The notes beneath the pieces were generated by a model. It searched no databases. It had not been told where the DNA came from and saw only the letters and a list, made by a program, of their open reading frames with translations. The translations under genes were made by a program, and so were the position numbers. Shown here piece by piece: positions 47,012-53,777 of a stretch of 64,000 nt of DNA. Origin of the DNA: Poseidonibacter lekithochrous. Its GTDB lineage: Bacteria > Campylobacterota > Campylobacteria > Campylobacterales > Arcobacteraceae. How positions within the stretch are numbered: position 1 is the stretch's first letter; each line of letters begins with the position of its first letter. Location of the stretch: NCBI RefSeq assembly GCF_018861145.1, contig NZ_JAHKQT010000032.1, positions 1 through 64,000 on the forward strand. The letters are read 5' to 3'.

Positions 47012-47299
47012 ATGCAATATTTAATAATCGCATATGATAATGATGGTGTAATTGAAAAAAGAATGGAATCTAGACCTGCTCACGTTGAAGCTACTCAAAA
47101 ATTAATGACTGAAGGTAAAATTATTAGTGCTTGTGCAATGATTGAAGAAGATGAAATGGTTGGATCTTCTGTTTTAACAAACTTTGATAGTGAAGATGAA
47201 TTAAATACATGGTTAGAAAATGAACCTTATGTAAAGGGTGGAGTTTGGAATATGGATGAAATTCAGATCGTACCTGTAAAAGCGATGCCAAAACTTTAG
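47012..47299 (+). CDS. YciI-family protein
   Basis: Small soluble protein of 95 aa of the YCII family (dimeric ferredoxin-like fold). The start MQYLIIAYDNDG, RPAHVEATQKLMTEGKIISACAM and the FDSEDELNTWLENEPYVKGGVW block with the conserved PY-GG-W pattern are characteristic. The RPAH histidine is the family's presumed active-site residue. Function is poorly known; some members are dehydrochlorinase-like. It has an AAAAAGGA ribosome site and a possible -10 (TATTATAAAT) just upstream. Confidence 0.85.
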   Translation: MQYLIIAYDNDGVIEKRMESRPAHVEATQKLMTEGKIISACAMIEEDEMVGSSVLTNFDSEDELNTWLENEPYVKGGVWNMDEIQIVPVKAMPKL

Positions 47300-47331
47300 A
47301 AAATGTTATTTAACTACTAAGTCTCTTATGA

Positions 47332-47410
47332 TATAATTCTATACTTAAAAGATATCCCTATAATTATAACTTAAAATAGGGATATTGGAAAACTAAGAAG
47401 GAATCAAATA
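47332..47410 (+). promoter_or_regulatory. eamA promoter and leader hairpin
   Basis: TATAAT (47332-47337, with TG one base before it) is an extended -10 promoter. The transcript leader holds a perfect 9-base-pair stem, ATATCCCTA (47352-47360) with TAGGGATAT (47377-47385), around a 16-base AT-rich loop. A ribosome site AAGAAGG (47397-47403) then precedes a tiny ORF, not the transporter itself. Confidence 0.6.
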
Positions 47411-47458
47411 ATGATAGAATTATTATTTATGTTAAATCCTTATTTAAAACAACAATAA
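47411..47458 (+). CDS. Leader peptide coupled to the EamA transporter gene
   Basis: A 15-residue ORF, MIELLFMLNPYLKQQ, starts eight bases after the AAGAAGG site and its TAA directly abuts the ATG of the EamA gene. The transporter has no ribosome site of its own, since the bases before it are the end of this ORF (AAACAACAATAA). Ribosomes finishing the leader would re-start on the transporter. This looks like translational coupling or a regulatory leader peptide; it is inferred from layout alone. Confidence 0.5.
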   Translation: MIELLFMLNPYLKQQ

Positions 47459-48328
47459 ATGAAATATTTAATTTTAGTAACTTTTCTTTGGGCATTTTCT
47501 TTTAGTTTTATAGGTGAAGTTTTAGCAGGTGAAGTTGATAGTTATTTTGCTGTACTTATTCGTGTTGTTTTAGCATCACTAGTTTTTTTGCCATTTACAA
47601 AATTTAGAGGTATTCAAACAAAATTAAAGCTTAAAATAATGTTTATTGGGACTGTCCAAATTGGGTTAATGTATATATTTCTATATAAATCTTTTTTATT
47701 CTTAACTGTTCCCGAAGTTTTACTTTTTACCATATTTACTCCCATTTATGTAACATTATTTTATGATGGATTAAAAGGTCAATTTAAACTACTTTACTTA
47801 ATTAGTACTGGATTAGCTGTATTTGGTGCATATATCATCAGATATCAAAATATAAATGAAGATTTTATTATAGGTTTTTTAATGGTACAAGGAGCAAGTA
47901 TTTGTTTTGCACTAGGACAAAGTGCTTACAAAAATATAATGGAATCAAATAAAGAAATTAGACAAAGAGATATTTTTGGATATTTTCATTTTGGAGCATT
48001 GATTGTAAGTGTTATATCCTTTTTATTATTTGCTAATTTAGAGAAGATATCACCATCTTTAACACAATGGGGTGTTTTAATCTGGTTAGGTGTTATAGCA
48101 TCAGGATTAGGATATTTTTTATGGAATAAAGGAGCTTGTCTAGTAGATTCAGGTGTACTTGCAATTATGAATAATGCCTTAGTTCCAGTAGGATTGCTTA
48201 TAAATCTAATTATTTGGGAAAAATCAAGTAATTATCTTTTACTATTTTTAGGAAGTATAGTTATGGCTTTATCTTTATATTTACACTACTATTTTATTAA
48301 ACTATATGATAAAAATAAAGTTTCTTAA
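47459..48328 (+). CDS. EamA/DMT-family transporter
   Basis: Inner-membrane transporter of 289 aa of the drug/metabolite transporter superfamily. It has about ten helices arranged as two EamA repeats: the first starts KYLILVTFLWAFSFSFIGEVLAG, and the second contains ASICFALGQSAYKN and IASGLGYFLWNKGACLVDSGVLAIMNNALVP. DMT proteins usually export amino acids, nucleosides or toxic metabolites; the substrate here is unknown. Expression may depend on the tiny ORF just before it. It ends 61 bases before phoX, whose control site lies in the gap. Confidence 0.88.
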   Translation: MKYLILVTFLWAFSFSFIGEVLAGEVDSYFAVLIRVVLASLVFLPFTKFRGIQTKLKLKIMFIGTVQIGLMYIFLYKSFLFLTVPEVLLFTIFTPIYVTLFYDGLKGQFKLLYLISTGLAVFGAYIIRYQNINEDFIIGFLMVQGASICFALGQSAYKNIMESNKEIRQRDIFGYFHFGALIVSVISFLLFANLEKISPSLTQWGVLIWLGVIASGLGYFLWNKGACLVDSGVLAIMNNALVPVGLLINLIIWEKSSNYLLLFLGSIVMALSLYLHYYFIKLYDKNKVS

Positions 48329-48329
48329 A

Positions 48330-48363
48330 TTGTAATCATTCTGTAATCAAGTCTTCTTAAAAT
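48330..48363 (+). promoter_or_regulatory. Pho-box-like promoter of phoX
   Basis: Two 7-base direct repeats, TTGTAAT (48330-48336) and CTGTAAT (48341-48347), are separated by four bases (11-base period). They are followed after 10 bases by TAAAAT (48358-48363). This is the layout of an E. coli Pho box (CTGTCAT repeats) that replaces the -35 element for PhoB. It fits phosphate control of the phosphatase gene. Confidence 0.6.
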
Positions 48364-48389
48364 ACAGAAAATATTTAAAGGAAGAAATT

Positions 48390-50594
48390 ATGAAAGATGT
48401 ACTTACAAAAAACCATCCTATGTCACCAAATGGACAAGACTCTATCTCTAAAAATAATTCAAATAATTTAACACTAGAAGAAATAACAGAAACTAGAGTT
48501 TCAAGAAGAACTTTAATAAAAGGCGGTTTAGCAGTTGTTGCAGGAAGCTTTTTTGGAATGAATTTAACTGGTTGTGGTAGCAGTCGTAATAATACATTAT
48601 CTCCTGTGGCATCTACAGCTTTATTAGATTTCGATTCTGTTGCAAAAAATATTGATGATATGGTAACTGTACCAGAAGGATATTCAGTACAAGTTTTATA
48701 TAGATTAGGTGATCCAATTAATTCCTTTACTTCTGAATATTCAAATGATGGAAGTGATACAGACTTTAATTATAGAGCAGGAGATCATCATGATGGTATG
48801 GCTTATTTTGGTATGAATAAAGAAGGAACTTTTAAAGACTTATCAAATTCTTCAAGAGGTTTACTCTGTATGAATCATGAAAATATGACTCAAATTTTCA
48901 TGCACACAGAAGATCAAAGAGCAGCTTATGACAAAACTGCAAGACCATCTCCCGAAATTGATAAAGAAGTTTCTGCACATGGTGTTTCTGTTATTGAAAT
49001 TCAAAAAGGAAATACAGAATTTTCAATAAACAAAAATTCTGTATTCAATAAAAGAATAACTGCTCAAACAGAAATAAATATAAATGGACCAGTAAAAAAC
49101 CACGATTTAGTAAAAACTAAATATTCAACAACTGGAGATAAAACAAGAGGAACTTTAAACAACTGTGCTAATGGATTAACACCATGGGGAACATATCTTA
49201 CATGTGAAGAGAATTGGGCTGGATACTTCAAAAGACCTGAAAGTAGTATTTTAATTGATATAAAAGCACAAGCTACTCAAAATAGATATATGGGTTCAAG
49301 TGCTTCAGATGGTTCTTATGGTTGGGCAAACTCTACGACTAATAATGATCTGTATGACAGATGGGATATTACTCCAAAGGGTAGTGATCAAATAGAGGAT
49401 TATAGAAATGCCGCAAATACATTTGGTTGGGTTGTTGAAATTGACCCATTTAATCCTACATCAACTCCAAGAAAGAGAACAGCCTTTGGAAGAATGGGAC
49501 ATGAGGGTGCAATGCCAGGACTTATAAAAAATGGTGAACCTTTAGTTTATTATATGGGTGATGATTCAAAAGGTGAATATATTTATAAATATGTATCTAC
49601 TTTAAATTGGGATGAATCTGATTTAAATGGTGGATTAGATGTAGGAGATAAATATTTAGATGATGGAAAACTTTTTGTTGCAAAATTTAATGATGATGGT
49701 TCAGGAGAATGGCTAGAGCTTTCAATGAATAATACTGATGTTACTTCCTATGCATCTTACAGTTTTGATGACTTAGGTGATATTCTGGTAAATACAAGAC
49801 ATGCAGCAGATGCAGTTAAAGCAACTCCAATGGATAGACCAGAATGGACAGGAGTCCATCCAAATACTGGTGATATTTATATTACTTTAACAAATAATAC
49901 AAATAGAGGTAAAGCTAGTGGAGTCAGTTCAGAACTTGATGCTTCTAATCCAAGGTATTATACAGATGATAAAGATGGAAAAACCTCTAAAGGAAATGTA
50001 AATGGACATCTAATTAGAATGCAAGAAGTTGGGAATAGTTCTAGTGCAACTGCGTTTAATTGGGATATTTATCTATTTGGTGCCCAAGCTGATGCCAATG
50101 AGAATATTAATATTTCTAAATTGACAGATGACAATGATTTTTCAAGCCCAGATGGATTATATTTTAGTCAAGCATCAAAAGGTTTAATGTGGTTACAAAC
50201 AGATGATGGTTATTACACAGATGTAACAAATTGTATGATGTTAGCAGCACTACCTGGAAAATATAATGACGGTAAAACTACAAAAATTATAAATAAATCT
50301 GTACCAAGTAATTCAAATGTAGATGAAACTATTACTACTTATGTAGGAGCTGAAGCTTCTAATACAAATCTAAAAAGATTTTTAGTTGGACCAAAAGAGT
50401 GTGAAATTACAGGAATTACTGAAACTCCTGATGGCAAAGCAATATTTGTAAATATTCAACATCCAGGAGAGAAAACAAAAGATTTAAGTGATACAACTTC
50501 ATATGGTAGCCATTGGCCAGATGCCAGTAGTTCAAGACCTAGGTCTGCTACTATTGTTATTACAAAAGATGATGGTGGAATTGTTGGCTCGTAA
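48390..50594 (+). CDS. phoX: PhoX-family alkaline phosphatase, Tat-exported
   Basis: Large phosphatase of the PhoX/DUF839 family, 734 aa, that would release phosphate from organic esters in the periplasm using calcium and iron. A twin-arginine signal (R39-R40 in SRRTLIKGG, then a hydrophobic stretch) fits the Tat export needed for a folded metalloprotein. A cysteine in LTGCGSS after the signal could be a lipid site. Conserved parts include LLCMNHENM, NNCANGLTPWGTYLTCEENWAGYF, GRMGHEGAMP, VYYMGDDSKGEYIYKYVS and PDGKAIFVNIQHPGE. Common in marine bacteria. A Pho-box-like site precedes it. Confidence 0.9.
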   Translation: MKDVLTKNHPMSPNGQDSISKNNSNNLTLEEITETRVSRRTLIKGGLAVVAGSFFGMNLTGCGSSRNNTLSPVASTALLDFDSVAKNIDDMVTVPEGYSVQVLYRLGDPINSFTSEYSNDGSDTDFNYRAGDHHDGMAYFGMNKEGTFKDLSNSSRGLLCMNHENMTQIFMHTEDQRAAYDKTARPSPEIDKEVSAHGVSVIEIQKGNTEFSINKNSVFNKRITAQTEININGPVKNHDLVKTKYSTTGDKTRGTLNNCANGLTPWGTYLTCEENWAGYFKRPESSILIDIKAQATQNRYMGSSASDGSYGWANSTTNNDLYDRWDITPKGSDQIEDYRNAANTFGWVVEIDPFNPTSTPRKRTAFGRMGHEGAMPGLIKNGEPLVYYMGDDSKGEYIYKYVSTLNWDESDLNGGLDVGDKYLDDGKLFVAKFNDDGSGEWLELSMNNTDVTSYASYSFDDLGDILVNTRHAADAVKATPMDRPEWTGVHPNTGDIYITLTNNTNRGKASGVSSELDASNPRYYTDDKDGKTSKGNVNGHLIRMQEVGNSSSATAFNWDIYLFGAQADANENINISKLTDDNDFSSPDGLYFSQASKGLMWLQTDDGYYTDVTNCMMLAALPGKYNDGKTTKIINKSVPSNSNVDETITTYVGAEASNTNLKRFLVGPKECEITGITETPDGKAIFVNIQHPGEKTKDLSDTTSYGSHWPDASSSRPRSATIVITKDDGGIVGS

Positions 50595-50648
50595 AAAAGT
50601 TCAAAAGTCAAAATAAGGAAAGTATTCTCTTTAAAATTTTTAAACTTA

Positions 50649-50680
50649 AAGTATTAGTAAATTTATATTTATTAATACTT
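50649..50680 (+). terminator. Hairpin after phoX
   Basis: A 14-base-pair AT-rich stem (50649-50662 with 50667-50680, one wobble pair) lies about 55 bases after the phoX stop. A shorter stem AAGTAA/TTACTT follows at 50695-50712. Neither has a T-run; they may be a 3' end structure or an operator for the DUF2971 gene. Confidence 0.4.
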
Positions 50681-50762
50681 ATTATATGATATTGAAGTAA
50701 GTGTTATTACTTAGAATATATAGATATTAATTACTGTATACTCTATTCTATAGGAGCATATT

Positions 50763-51575
50763 ATGGGAAATATTATTTATCATTATTGTAGTGTTGAATC
50801 TTTTAGAGCTATAATTGAAAATAAAACATTATGGTTAAGCTCGGTATATAATTTAAATGATTATAAAGAAATTCATTGGATAAAAGATAAAATTTTTAAG
50901 AAAATCAAAAGCTCAGTAACAAAGGACAACTTTTTAAAATATAAAAGTTTTGAAGAGTTGTATTCTAATCAACTTCCAAATGTATATATAGCATCTTTTT
51001 CTGAAGGATCAGATCTTTTAAGTCAATGGCGTGCGTATGCAAATGATGGCTTTGGTGTTGCAATTGGTTTTAATAGTGAGTATTTTAAAGAAAATAAACT
51101 TGTTCAAACTTCAGTTGTATTATATGATGAGTTGGAACAAGAAAAACAAATTGATTTAATCTTATCCCCTTTGGAAAAATTAGATCAAAATATTGATACT
51201 GAATCGCTAGAATTTGTTGAAATTTGTAAAAATATAATTATAGATATTAATAACCTATCAGCTAAATCTAAAAATGAACTGTTTAAAGAAGAACAAGAAG
51301 TTAGACTAGTTCACACTCCTAAGATAATAGATGATAAAGAGAATAAAAAATATATATTTGAAGATAATATATCTCAAATGATGTTTCGTTCTGTTTATGG
51401 AAATCTTATTCCTTATTTTGAACTAAAATTTGAAAAAGAAAAACAAATACCAGCAATATTCGAAATCATAAAAGGTCCTAAGAACAAGTTTATAGATGAA
51501 GAAGCAAAAATATTTCTTTCAAATAATGGTTTTTATTCTGTTGATATAAAAAGTTCTAAATCGTCTTATAGATAA
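50763..51575 (+). CDS. DUF2971-family protein
   Basis: Protein of 270 aa clearly of the DUF2971 family. The N-terminal IIYHYCSVESFRAIIENKTLWLSS and NDYKEIHW, then IASFSEGSDLLSQWRAYANDGFGVAIGF, match the family's conserved blocks (SFSE--D-LS-W--Y). Family members are scattered, often near mobile or defence genes, and have no established function. It has a TAGGAG ribosome site. No toxin-antitoxin partner can be recognised in the next gene. Confidence 0.82.
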   Translation: MGNIIYHYCSVESFRAIIENKTLWLSSVYNLNDYKEIHWIKDKIFKKIKSSVTKDNFLKYKSFEELYSNQLPNVYIASFSEGSDLLSQWRAYANDGFGVAIGFNSEYFKENKLVQTSVVLYDELEQEKQIDLILSPLEKLDQNIDTESLEFVEICKNIIIDINNLSAKSKNELFKEEQEVRLVHTPKIIDDKENKKYIFEDNISQMMFRSVYGNLIPYFELKFEKEKQIPAIFEIIKGPKNKFIDEEAKIFLSNNGFYSVDIKSSKSSYR

Positions 51576-51626
51576 AAGATATTTTATTTAGATATAATGT
51601 TAATTAGAAAATATAATAGGATAAAT

Positions 51627-52109
51627 ATGAGATTTAATGATTTAGATTTAGATACGAAAAAAGAACTTAATAAACAAATAACTGAACATGCAAATAGCAT
51701 TGGAGGAATTAATTTTTTTCTTCAAATGATTGAAGATATTAGAAATGAAAAACCAAATGCATTATTAAATAAAACGGCAATTTTTCATTATACTAAAGGA
51801 AAAATTACTTGGAGTAAATCTATTTATAAAGATACATTAACTCAATTATTTAACGCGATGAGAAAAGAAGATAAAGATGGTGATATTTTAAATGGTTTAA
51901 ATCCAAAAGTTTATAAAGAAACAATGAATATGATGAGAGCTTTAAAACCAGTTACAATCTCTATTAGAAATGAAGATAGTAGTTCAGGTTTTGCCGTAGA
52001 TATTTTAGATTCAAGTGAAGTAAAAAAAACAAAAGTTGATTTAATGTTTAAAATCATATTCTTTTACAATATTGAATTTGCAAAAGATACATTAACTTTT
52101 AAAGCTTAG
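51627..52109 (+). CDS. Hypothetical protein, unknown family
   Basis: Soluble protein of 160 aa with no recognised motif. It is charged with mixed helix and strand character (ANSIGGINFFLQMIEDI, KGKITWSKSIYKDTLTQLF, VDLMFKIIFFYNIEFA). No signal peptide or membrane helix. ATG 51627 with AGGATAAAT before it is chosen; ATG 51597 would add ten basic residues and lacks a ribosome site. It lies 51 bases after the DUF2971 gene and 9 before ywbE, so the three may share a transcript. Confidence 0.65.
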   Translation: MRFNDLDLDTKKELNKQITEHANSIGGINFFLQMIEDIRNEKPNALLNKTAIFHYTKGKITWSKSIYKDTLTQLFNAMRKEDKDGDILNGLNPKVYKETMNMMRALKPVTISIRNEDSSSGFAVDILDSSEVKKTKVDLMFKIIFFYNIEFAKDTLTFKA

Positions 52110-52118
52110 GGATATATT

Positions 52119-52310
52119 ATGGATGGTAAAAAAAGAATTAATATTAAACCAGGTATAACAGTTAATATTGTCTTAAAAGAAGACCAAAGAACTGGTAGAT
52201 TAACAAAAGGTGTAGTGCAAGATATTCTAACAAAATCTCCTACGCATCCTCATGGAATAAAAGTTAGAACTACTTTTGGTGAAGTTGGACGTGTCCAAGA
52301 GATTCTATAA
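52119..52310 (+). CDS. YwbE-family protein
   Basis: Small basic protein of 63 aa that matches the YwbE (DUF2196) family along its whole length: RINIKPGITVNIVLKEDQRTG, then GVVQDILTKSPTHPHGIKVR and GEVGRVQEI. The fold is a small KOW-like beta barrel by family knowledge; the role is unknown, perhaps RNA binding. An AGGGATATATT leader precedes the ATG. Its stop codon lies inside the terminator stem shared with the convergent MFS gene. Confidence 0.88.
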   Translation: MDGKKRINIKPGITVNIVLKEDQRTGRLTKGVVQDILTKSPTHPHGIKVRTTFGEVGRVQEIL

Positions 52311-52347
52311 AAGATATAAAGGTTATATACCTTTATATCTTTTATAA
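52307..52347. terminator. Bidirectional terminator between ywbE and the MFS gene
   Basis: A perfect 17-base-pair stem (52307-52323 with 52331-52347, loop of seven) contains the ywbE stop codon, and its right half overlaps the MFS stop. A/T-rich flanks on both sides would let it act in both directions. Confidence 0.8.
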
Positions 52348-53471
52348 AATAATAAACATAAAATAACTCCAATTAAAGCCATTCCTGCACCCACAAGTGA
52401 TGGATAATTAAAACTAAGTCCAAATAATAATGGAATACCTCCAAATAATGCACCCAAAGAGTTTGACACATTAAAAGCTGCTTGAATAAAAGCAGCTCCT
52501 AACATTTCTGAATGTTTTGCACTTTTTAACATAATCATATTAATAGGTGAGCTAATTGACATTGCAAGCGCTCCACAAATAAAAGTAAGTATTATTGATA
52601 CTATTTTATTTTCTGAGAATAAAAATACTAAAATAAGGGCAATTACCATTAGTGTAAGTAAAAATATAGAAGCTATTACGGGATCTTTTTTATCAGCTAA
52701 ATATCCACCAAAAATATTCCCAACTACCATTCCTCCACCTGCAATTGCCATCATATAAGAAACACTTCCACTTTCAAATCCTGATACATGAATAAGAAGA
52801 GGAGCTATATAACTAAACCAAGCAAATAAACCTCCAAATCCAATAGAAACAATAGTTAATATATGCCATGCTTTAATTGTTTTAAAAAACTCTAATTCTT
52901 CTTTAAATGTAACACTTCTAAGTGCTTTTAAATGTGGTAAATATAGATATAGAAATAAAATAGTTAGTAATCCTAAAAATGAAACAATACCAAAAGCATA
53001 TCTCCAATGAAGATGATGCCCTAAAAAAGTAACAAGAGGAACCATTAGTAAAATTGCTAAGGTTAATCCTGTAAATATTGAAGCAATAGCTTGTGCCGCT
53101 TTCCCTTCTTTTGCTAATTTAGAAGCTACAACAGTAGCAACACCAAAAAAAGCTCCATGTGGAAGACCAGATAAAAATCTTGATATTAAAAGAGTATTAT
53201 AATCAGGTGCAATAATTGAAAAAGCATTAAATATTGTAAACATAATCATTAATGTAATTAAAATATATTTTGGTGGAAATTTTGCACTAAGTGCAACTAA
53301 TATAGGTGCACCAATTACAACACCTAATGCATAAGCAGAAATCAAATGACCTGCTACTGGAATTGAAATATTAATAGAACTTGCAATATCAGGGAGTAAT
53401 CCCATTATTACAAATTCAGTAGTACCAATTGCTAAACCGCCTAAGGCTAATGGAAATAATTCTTTTGTCAT
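52323..53471 (-). CDS. MFS efflux transporter (AraJ/YdhP-like)
   Basis: Twelve-helix major facilitator of 382 aa, of the drug:H+ antiporter-1 family (DHA1). The start ALGGLAIGTTEFVIMGLLPDIA with the D/E-R-like FVIMGLLP pattern, SAYALGVVIGAPI in helix 2 and LPHGAFFGVATVVASKLA in helix 4 are typical of AraJ/YdhP-type sugar or drug exporters. The substrate is unknown. It ends the accessory stretch and is divergent from rpsL; its promoter must lie in 53472-53593. Confidence 0.87.
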   Translation of the reverse strand: MTKELFPLALGGLAIGTTEFVIMGLLPDIASSINISIPVAGHLISAYALGVVIGAPILVALSAKFPPKYILITLMIMFTIFNAFSIIAPDYNTLLISRFLSGLPHGAFFGVATVVASKLAKEGKAAQAIASIFTGLTLAILLMVPLVTFLGHHLHWRYAFGIVSFLGLLTILFLYLYLPHLKALRSVTFKEELEFFKTIKAWHILTIVSIGFGGLFAWFSYIAPLLIHVSGFESGSVSYMMAIAGGGMVVGNIFGGYLADKKDPVIASIFLLTLMVIALILVFLFSENKIVSIILTFICGALAMSISSPINMIMLKSAKHSEMLGAAFIQAAFNVSNSLGALFGGIPLLFGLSFNYPSLVGAGMALIGVILCLLFYKRYKGI

Positions 53472-53593
53472 TGTTTAGTATCTTTTTAAATTGATTTTTT
53501 GAAATTATAGGAATAAAATTTTATTATTAACTTAAAAAGTATAACTATTATTTGCAAAAGATTCTGTTAAAGAGTAATTAAGTTTAAATTCAG

Positions 53594-53777
53594 TATAATC
53601 CTTCTACTTTTTAGAAAACCTAATTGTTTCTCTAGAATGGAAGTATCGTTTCAGCTTTATGTTGAGGTAAACGAGAAGCATGAGCATTGCTTTAATTGCT
53701 CTAACCAAATGAAATAGAGAGTCTTACATATAAACATTATATCAATAGATTACTCTACAACTATATAAAGGGAAAGA
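53594..53777 (+). promoter_or_regulatory. rpsL-rpsG-fusA promoter and long leader
   Basis: TATAAT (53594-53599) predicts a leader of about 170 bases before rpsL. It is GC-richer than neighbouring spacer and can form short stems such as GAGCA with TGCTC near 53690-53710. In E. coli S7 controls its operon at a different site, between rpsL and rpsG. The 306-base gap 53472-53777 also holds the divergent MFS gene promoter; no gene is seen in it. Confidence 0.5.

Follow-up and report, generated by a model that had tools for sequence, protein, structure and literature searches.

Mini-ORFs ahead of genes without a ribosome site

In class 1 integrons, the attI1 region holds tiny open reading frames (ORFs) of 11–18 codons, ORF-11, ORF-17, and ORF-18, with their own Shine–Dalgarno (SD) sequence and placed just ahead of a newly acquired gene that has no translation initiation region. 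By coupling, ORF-11/18 feed ribosomes to such cassettes, and the peptide sequence hardly matters (PMC8876359). A comparable arrangement is present in Poseidonibacter lekithochrous (Arcobacter group, genome of 3.0 Mb), in positions 1 to 64,000 of contig NZ_JAHKQT010000032.1; this whole stretch of 64,000 nt is called here the window. A 15-codon mini-ORF with its own SD ends there exactly where the gene of an EamA transporter, itself without SD, begins. We consider it rather probable that ribosomes load on the mini-ORF and pass from it to the EamA gene by termination–reinitiation. In sequence, the mini-ORF is unrelated to ORF-11, and the distance to the following gene is 0 nt in the window. No integron integrase was found among the Pfam-scanned neighbors or recognized in the ORF lists, and an attI/attC organization was not recognized (no attC model was run). 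Most likely, the mini-ORF does no more than pass on ribosomes, a trick already known. The locus would then show, in nature and outside integrons, how a very small upstream ORF can bring about the translation of a relocated gene without a ribosome site; its phylum is one in which gene order is known to be shuffled.

In Escherichia coli, the stop of ORF27, a short SD-bearing upstream ORF, meets the start of iraD, and iraD depends on the coupling (PMC5574718). However, iraD has an SD of its own, which is masked, and CsrA represses the gene by way of ORF27, whereas the Pfam CsrA model (E 0.001) finds nothing in the whole window genome (G000, listed as 100% complete).

In bicistronic designs, the target usually keeps its SD inside the first cistron. 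The mini-ORF of the window, in contrast, contains no SD for its target, and the arrangement is natural. Otherwise, a short first cistron, a strong SD, and adjacent stop and start are shared with such synthetic constructs (e.g., PMC5995908).

Within the same phylum, the leader peptides LeuL, TrpL, and MetL of Campylobacter jejuni are likewise short ORFs that lie in a 5′ leader and have aAGGa as their ribosome site. Unlike the mini-ORF, they precede biosynthetic operons, contain cognate amino-acid codons, and give short RNAs ending just past the ORF (transcription attenuation; PMC3847290); none of these is seen in the window. Leaderless mRNAs and short leader ORFs are both documented in C. jejuni, and transcript structure, like gene order, is poorly conserved across the phylum (PMC3847290, PMC11955535).

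The leader and the start of the EamA gene

An earlier note on this stretch had described an extended −10 promoter, a hairpin, and, behind a good ribosome site, an ORF of 15 codons with its stop directly at the start of a transporter gene that lacks such a site. All these elements can be recognized (Table 1), with a different geometry for the hairpin. The putative promoter consists of TTAACT (47310–47315) and TGATATAAT (47329–47337), which carries the TG extension. It is one of four 10/12 matches in the scanned stretch and the sole one with that extension; overall, the number of promoter-like matches in the stretch is at chance level. The predicted transcription start would fall at about 47344–47347. 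The hairpin is formed by the arms GATATCCCTAT (47351–47361) and ATAGGGATATT (47376–47386). It has 10 Watson–Crick pairs and one G–U pair closing a loop of 14 nt, rather than nine pairs with a 16-base loop as first described, and the predicted RNA fold of 47346–47430 reaches −16.3 kcal/mol (z −3.2).

The mini-ORF, terminated by TAA (47456–47458), is in the frame of the EamA gene, with no nucleotide between stop and start. At the EamA start, no SD match of at least 3 nt is present. The layout is thus that of a coupling mini-cistron: an own SD and start codon, a stop at the start of the main gene, and a main gene without accessible SD. No intrinsic terminator was found in the scanned leader. With the Rfam covariance models at gathering score, only tRNAs were found in the window, and neither a riboswitch nor a known leader. 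No solved structure is related by sequence to the transporter.

Table 1. Features of the EamA locus in the window
Feature	Position	Strand	Basis or remark
YCII-domain gene, upstream	47012..47299	+	kept in 73/104 family genomes, variable behind
Putative sigma-70 promoter, TTAACT-16 nt-TATAAT with TG extension	47310..47337	+	consensus scan only
Hairpin at predicted mRNA 5′ end, no T-run after	47351..47386	+	sequence and RNA fold
SD AAGGA of the mini-ORF	47398..47402	+	8 nt 5′ of mini-ORF ATG
Mini-ORF of 15 codons, MIELLFMLNPYLKQQ then stop	47411..47458	+	stop abuts EamA start, same frame
EamA-phoX block common to window and L002/G096, 91% identity, sharp edges	47454..50599	+	comparison with L002/G096
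EamA/DMT transporter, no SD	47459..48328	+	PF00892; nearest named NCBIfam model TIGR00950, below cut-off
phoX, second gene of the shared block	48390..50594	+	PF05787

Missing ribosome sites and upstream stops among the relatives

In the family Arcobacteraceae, the transporter occurs in five of 104 genomes (the window genome, L002, L084, L085, and L003). In the tree, the five proteins group in a single clade (support 100/99), in which those of the window and of L002 are sisters (98/95). Among the family copies, dN/dS is 0.09–0.15. Since the gene is under purifying selection, it is presumably translated in each of its settings.

None of the five copies has an SD, whereas an SD of at least 4 nt is present in all 14 orthologs examined outside the family (L004–L017; Sulfurospirillum and kin, nearly all Campylobacterota by record title, with L015 labeled only Proteobacteria). 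For the lack of SD, 5/5 against 0/14 gives a Fisher p of 8.6e-5 without correction for common descent; as the five copies belong to a single clade, the SD may have been lost only once.

All five EamA starts of the family lie 0–20 nt after the stop of an ORF, which in the window is the mini-ORF. In L002, the EamA ATG is 3 nt past the stop of rnhB. In L084 and L085, it is 7 and 6 nt, respectively, past the stop of a 141-amino-acid gene behind cbiB. In L003 (Halarcobacter), it is 20 nt past the stop of a long ORF; TATAAT lies there 6 nt before the ATG, so that the EamA mRNA is probably leaderless. The earlier note had likened the layout to leader-peptide control of export genes, by stalling or by reinitiation. 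The reinitiation half is supported by these copies, all without SD and all close behind a stop. The gene offers a tidy comparison set, with at least four upstream contexts.

In the two Arcobacter genomes (L084 184–1493; L085, reverse strand as stored), the transporter gene is directly behind cbiB and the 141-amino-acid gene, and it may for this reason be tied to cobamide metabolism there. The rnhB of L002 (2536–2997) has an open frame of 153 codons, against 193–222 in relatives; either its N-terminus has been cut short, or the metagenome-assembled genome is faulty at this point.

The EamA-phoX block and its genomic settings

The block shared by the window and L002 begins 5 nt before the EamA ATG and ends 5 nt past the phoX stop. 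With a left edge so close to the ATG, the leader is outside the shared unit and is site-specific. In L002 (genome G096), the block stands between rnhB and a convergent histidine-kinase gene, and that rnhB site is unoccupied in both the window genome and G093. In the window, the YCII-domain gene precedes the block and a DUF2971 gene follows it. In the window genome and seven relatives, the cbiB site of L084 and L085 is likewise unoccupied. Occupied and empty sites, taken together, indicate that, from genome to genome, the EamA gene has come to stand behind different stops. A target-site duplication at the block edges was looked for and rejected, no 8-mer being shared.

A more speculative extension, to which we give low credence, would be that the EamA gene (with or without phoX) is one of a class of roaming genes, which move as coding sequence alone and persist where they land directly behind a stop codon, using for translation whichever ORF ends there. 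In the window lineage, selection would then have built or captured the mini-ORF as a stand-in for the missing upstream gene.

Proposed handing over of ribosomes, and direct initiation as a rival

In the proposed sequence of events, the promoter at about 47310–47337 would give an mRNA with a short hairpin at its 5′ end. Ribosomes would bind at AAGGA, translate the 15 codons, and terminate at TAA; the same or a neighboring ribosome would restart on the adjoining ATG and produce EamA. A mini-ORF would be needed because the EamA-phoX block, in its new position, lacks the upstream sequence native to it. Elsewhere, the same gene would be served by an ordinary gene end (rnhB, or the gene after cbiB) or, as in Halarcobacter, would probably be leaderless. 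Which peptide the mini-ORF encodes is probably irrelevant. The hairpin would most likely serve to protect or stabilize the 5′ end of the mRNA, or be incidental. Reinitiation is known to drop as the distance between stop and start grows (PMC2268962).

Four points weigh against such a handing over. Genome-wide counts were taken from a 366-kb sample of the same genome, with gene starts crudely predicted. The strict layout (ATG, SD of 5 nt, 6–35 codons, and a stop within 1 nt of the gene start) is found in 0.12% of shuffled upstream regions, or about one per genome by chance. Starts without SD are fairly common (46 of the 278 predicted starts, 17%, a crude figure). No second genome carries the mini-ORF, so that there is no evidence of selection on it. 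Finally, reinitiation is possible without an SD but is aided by one (in an E. coli reporter, an added SD raised it more than threefold; PMC2268962), and the EamA start has none.

The strict layout is also found in 0.2% of shuffles of the gene's own upstream region. Inverted arms of at least 10 bp occur in 2.2% of shuffles of the leader stretch and in 13 of 109 real upstream regions. Given these chance frequencies, each part of the layout is unremarkable genome-wide.

The expectation of about one such layout per genome and the frequency of starts without SD both speak for a simpler view, in which the mini-ORF is accidental and the EamA start is used directly. SD-independent initiation, of the ribosomal protein S1 type or another, would then profit from AAAACAACAATAA, an unstructured stretch rich in A and C that precedes the ATG. 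The start region is weakly structured, and AATAAATG is found at the start in three of the five family copies. Direct use is a serious rival, but we hold it to be somewhat unlikely, since the mini-ORF has a good, well-spaced SD and its stop exactly at the start of a gene without SD, and since the other four copies are also 3–20 nt behind an ORF stop. Chance alone does not explain a mini-ORF placed exactly on a gene without SD; among the 71 genes with a free upstream region in the sample, the EamA gene is the only one without SD that bears such a mini-ORF.

The hairpin and the question of a sensor

The mini-ORF could instead be a true regulator, in which stalling or slow decoding, perhaps with an alternative hairpin, would report on a metabolite or an inhibitor and adjust the exporter. 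The leader hairpin is indeed more stable than its shuffles (z −2.6 to −3.2), and its 3′ arm can pair with AUCCUUAUUU in the mini-ORF over 10 pairs. However, this alternative pairing is equaled in 12% of shuffles. The leader contains no terminator and gives no Rfam match, and the transporter has no SD that could be masked. Apart from Leu-Leu and Gln-Gln, the mini-ORF has no run of codons for a single amino acid. The part of the earlier note's likeness that concerns sensing or stalling is not supported.

Comparison with relatives, which that note had called for, points the same way. Neither the four other family copies nor the more distant orthologs that were examined have the mini-ORF, and the stem likewise stands at no other examined orthologous transporter. 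The exact hairpin occurs once in its own genome and in none of the 103 other family genomes. As far as the compared sequences go, and by the refuting condition that the note itself had set, a conserved sensing leader is not supported, and we judge a regulator of this kind improbable. If ribosomes are indeed handed over from the mini-ORF, the locus would caution that a short ORF preceding an exporter gene need not be a sensor.

Other candidates for the leader were tried and rejected: an intrinsic terminator for the preceding gene (the hairpin is not followed by a T-run), a known riboswitch (no Rfam match), and similar leader DNA elsewhere in the genome or in the family (only short, AT-rich chance matches).

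Dyads at about +5 to +40 are a common operator position. The dyad 47351–47386 falls at such a position just downstream from the promoter, and it could be a DNA operator for a repressor. It could also be the site of an RNA-binding, CsrA-like protein that controls the mini-ORF as in E. coli iraD, where the upstream ORF and the main gene have the same stop/start arrangement (PMC5574718). GGA occurs at 47380, 47387, and 47400 (the last within the SD), and three GGA per 115 nt exceeds 99% of shuffles. Against both forms, the dyad occurs a single time in its genome and in no other member of the family, and arms of at least 10 bp are common upstream of genes in this genome. The CsrA form was rejected in the absence of CsrA by the Pfam model. 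An operator or protein site is, in our view, very improbable.

The interval from rpoC to rpsL and the region ahead of phoX

Behind the YCII-domain gene, the interval between rpoC and rpsL (window 47300–53777) is highly variable among Arcobacteraceae. In several genomes, a phage-type integrase-like ORF (MPKISKPLT..., recognized by eye) is directly behind the YCII-domain gene, which suggests an integration hot spot between rpoC and rpsL.

In the sister species G099 and G093, a gene of 188 amino acids (MIELRKGR..., no Pfam match) occupies the exact position of EamA-phoX (L196 475–1041; L197 8692–9258). The window genome keeps a 60%-identical homolog of it elsewhere only. The mini-ORF as a relic start of this gene is not supported: the local score is below the shuffle mean, despite 12/13 bases agreeing at the start codon. 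In addition, the gene of the sister species starts 1–2 nt past the upstream stop, versus 111 nt for the mini-ORF.

Between EamA and phoX, the window has a direct repeat, TGTAATC-ATTC-TGTAATC (48331–48348, 11-bp spacing), which resembles a Pho box. A similar TTTGTAATCATTTTGTAAT is found ahead of phoX in L002 and ahead of the solitary phoX of G093 and G094.
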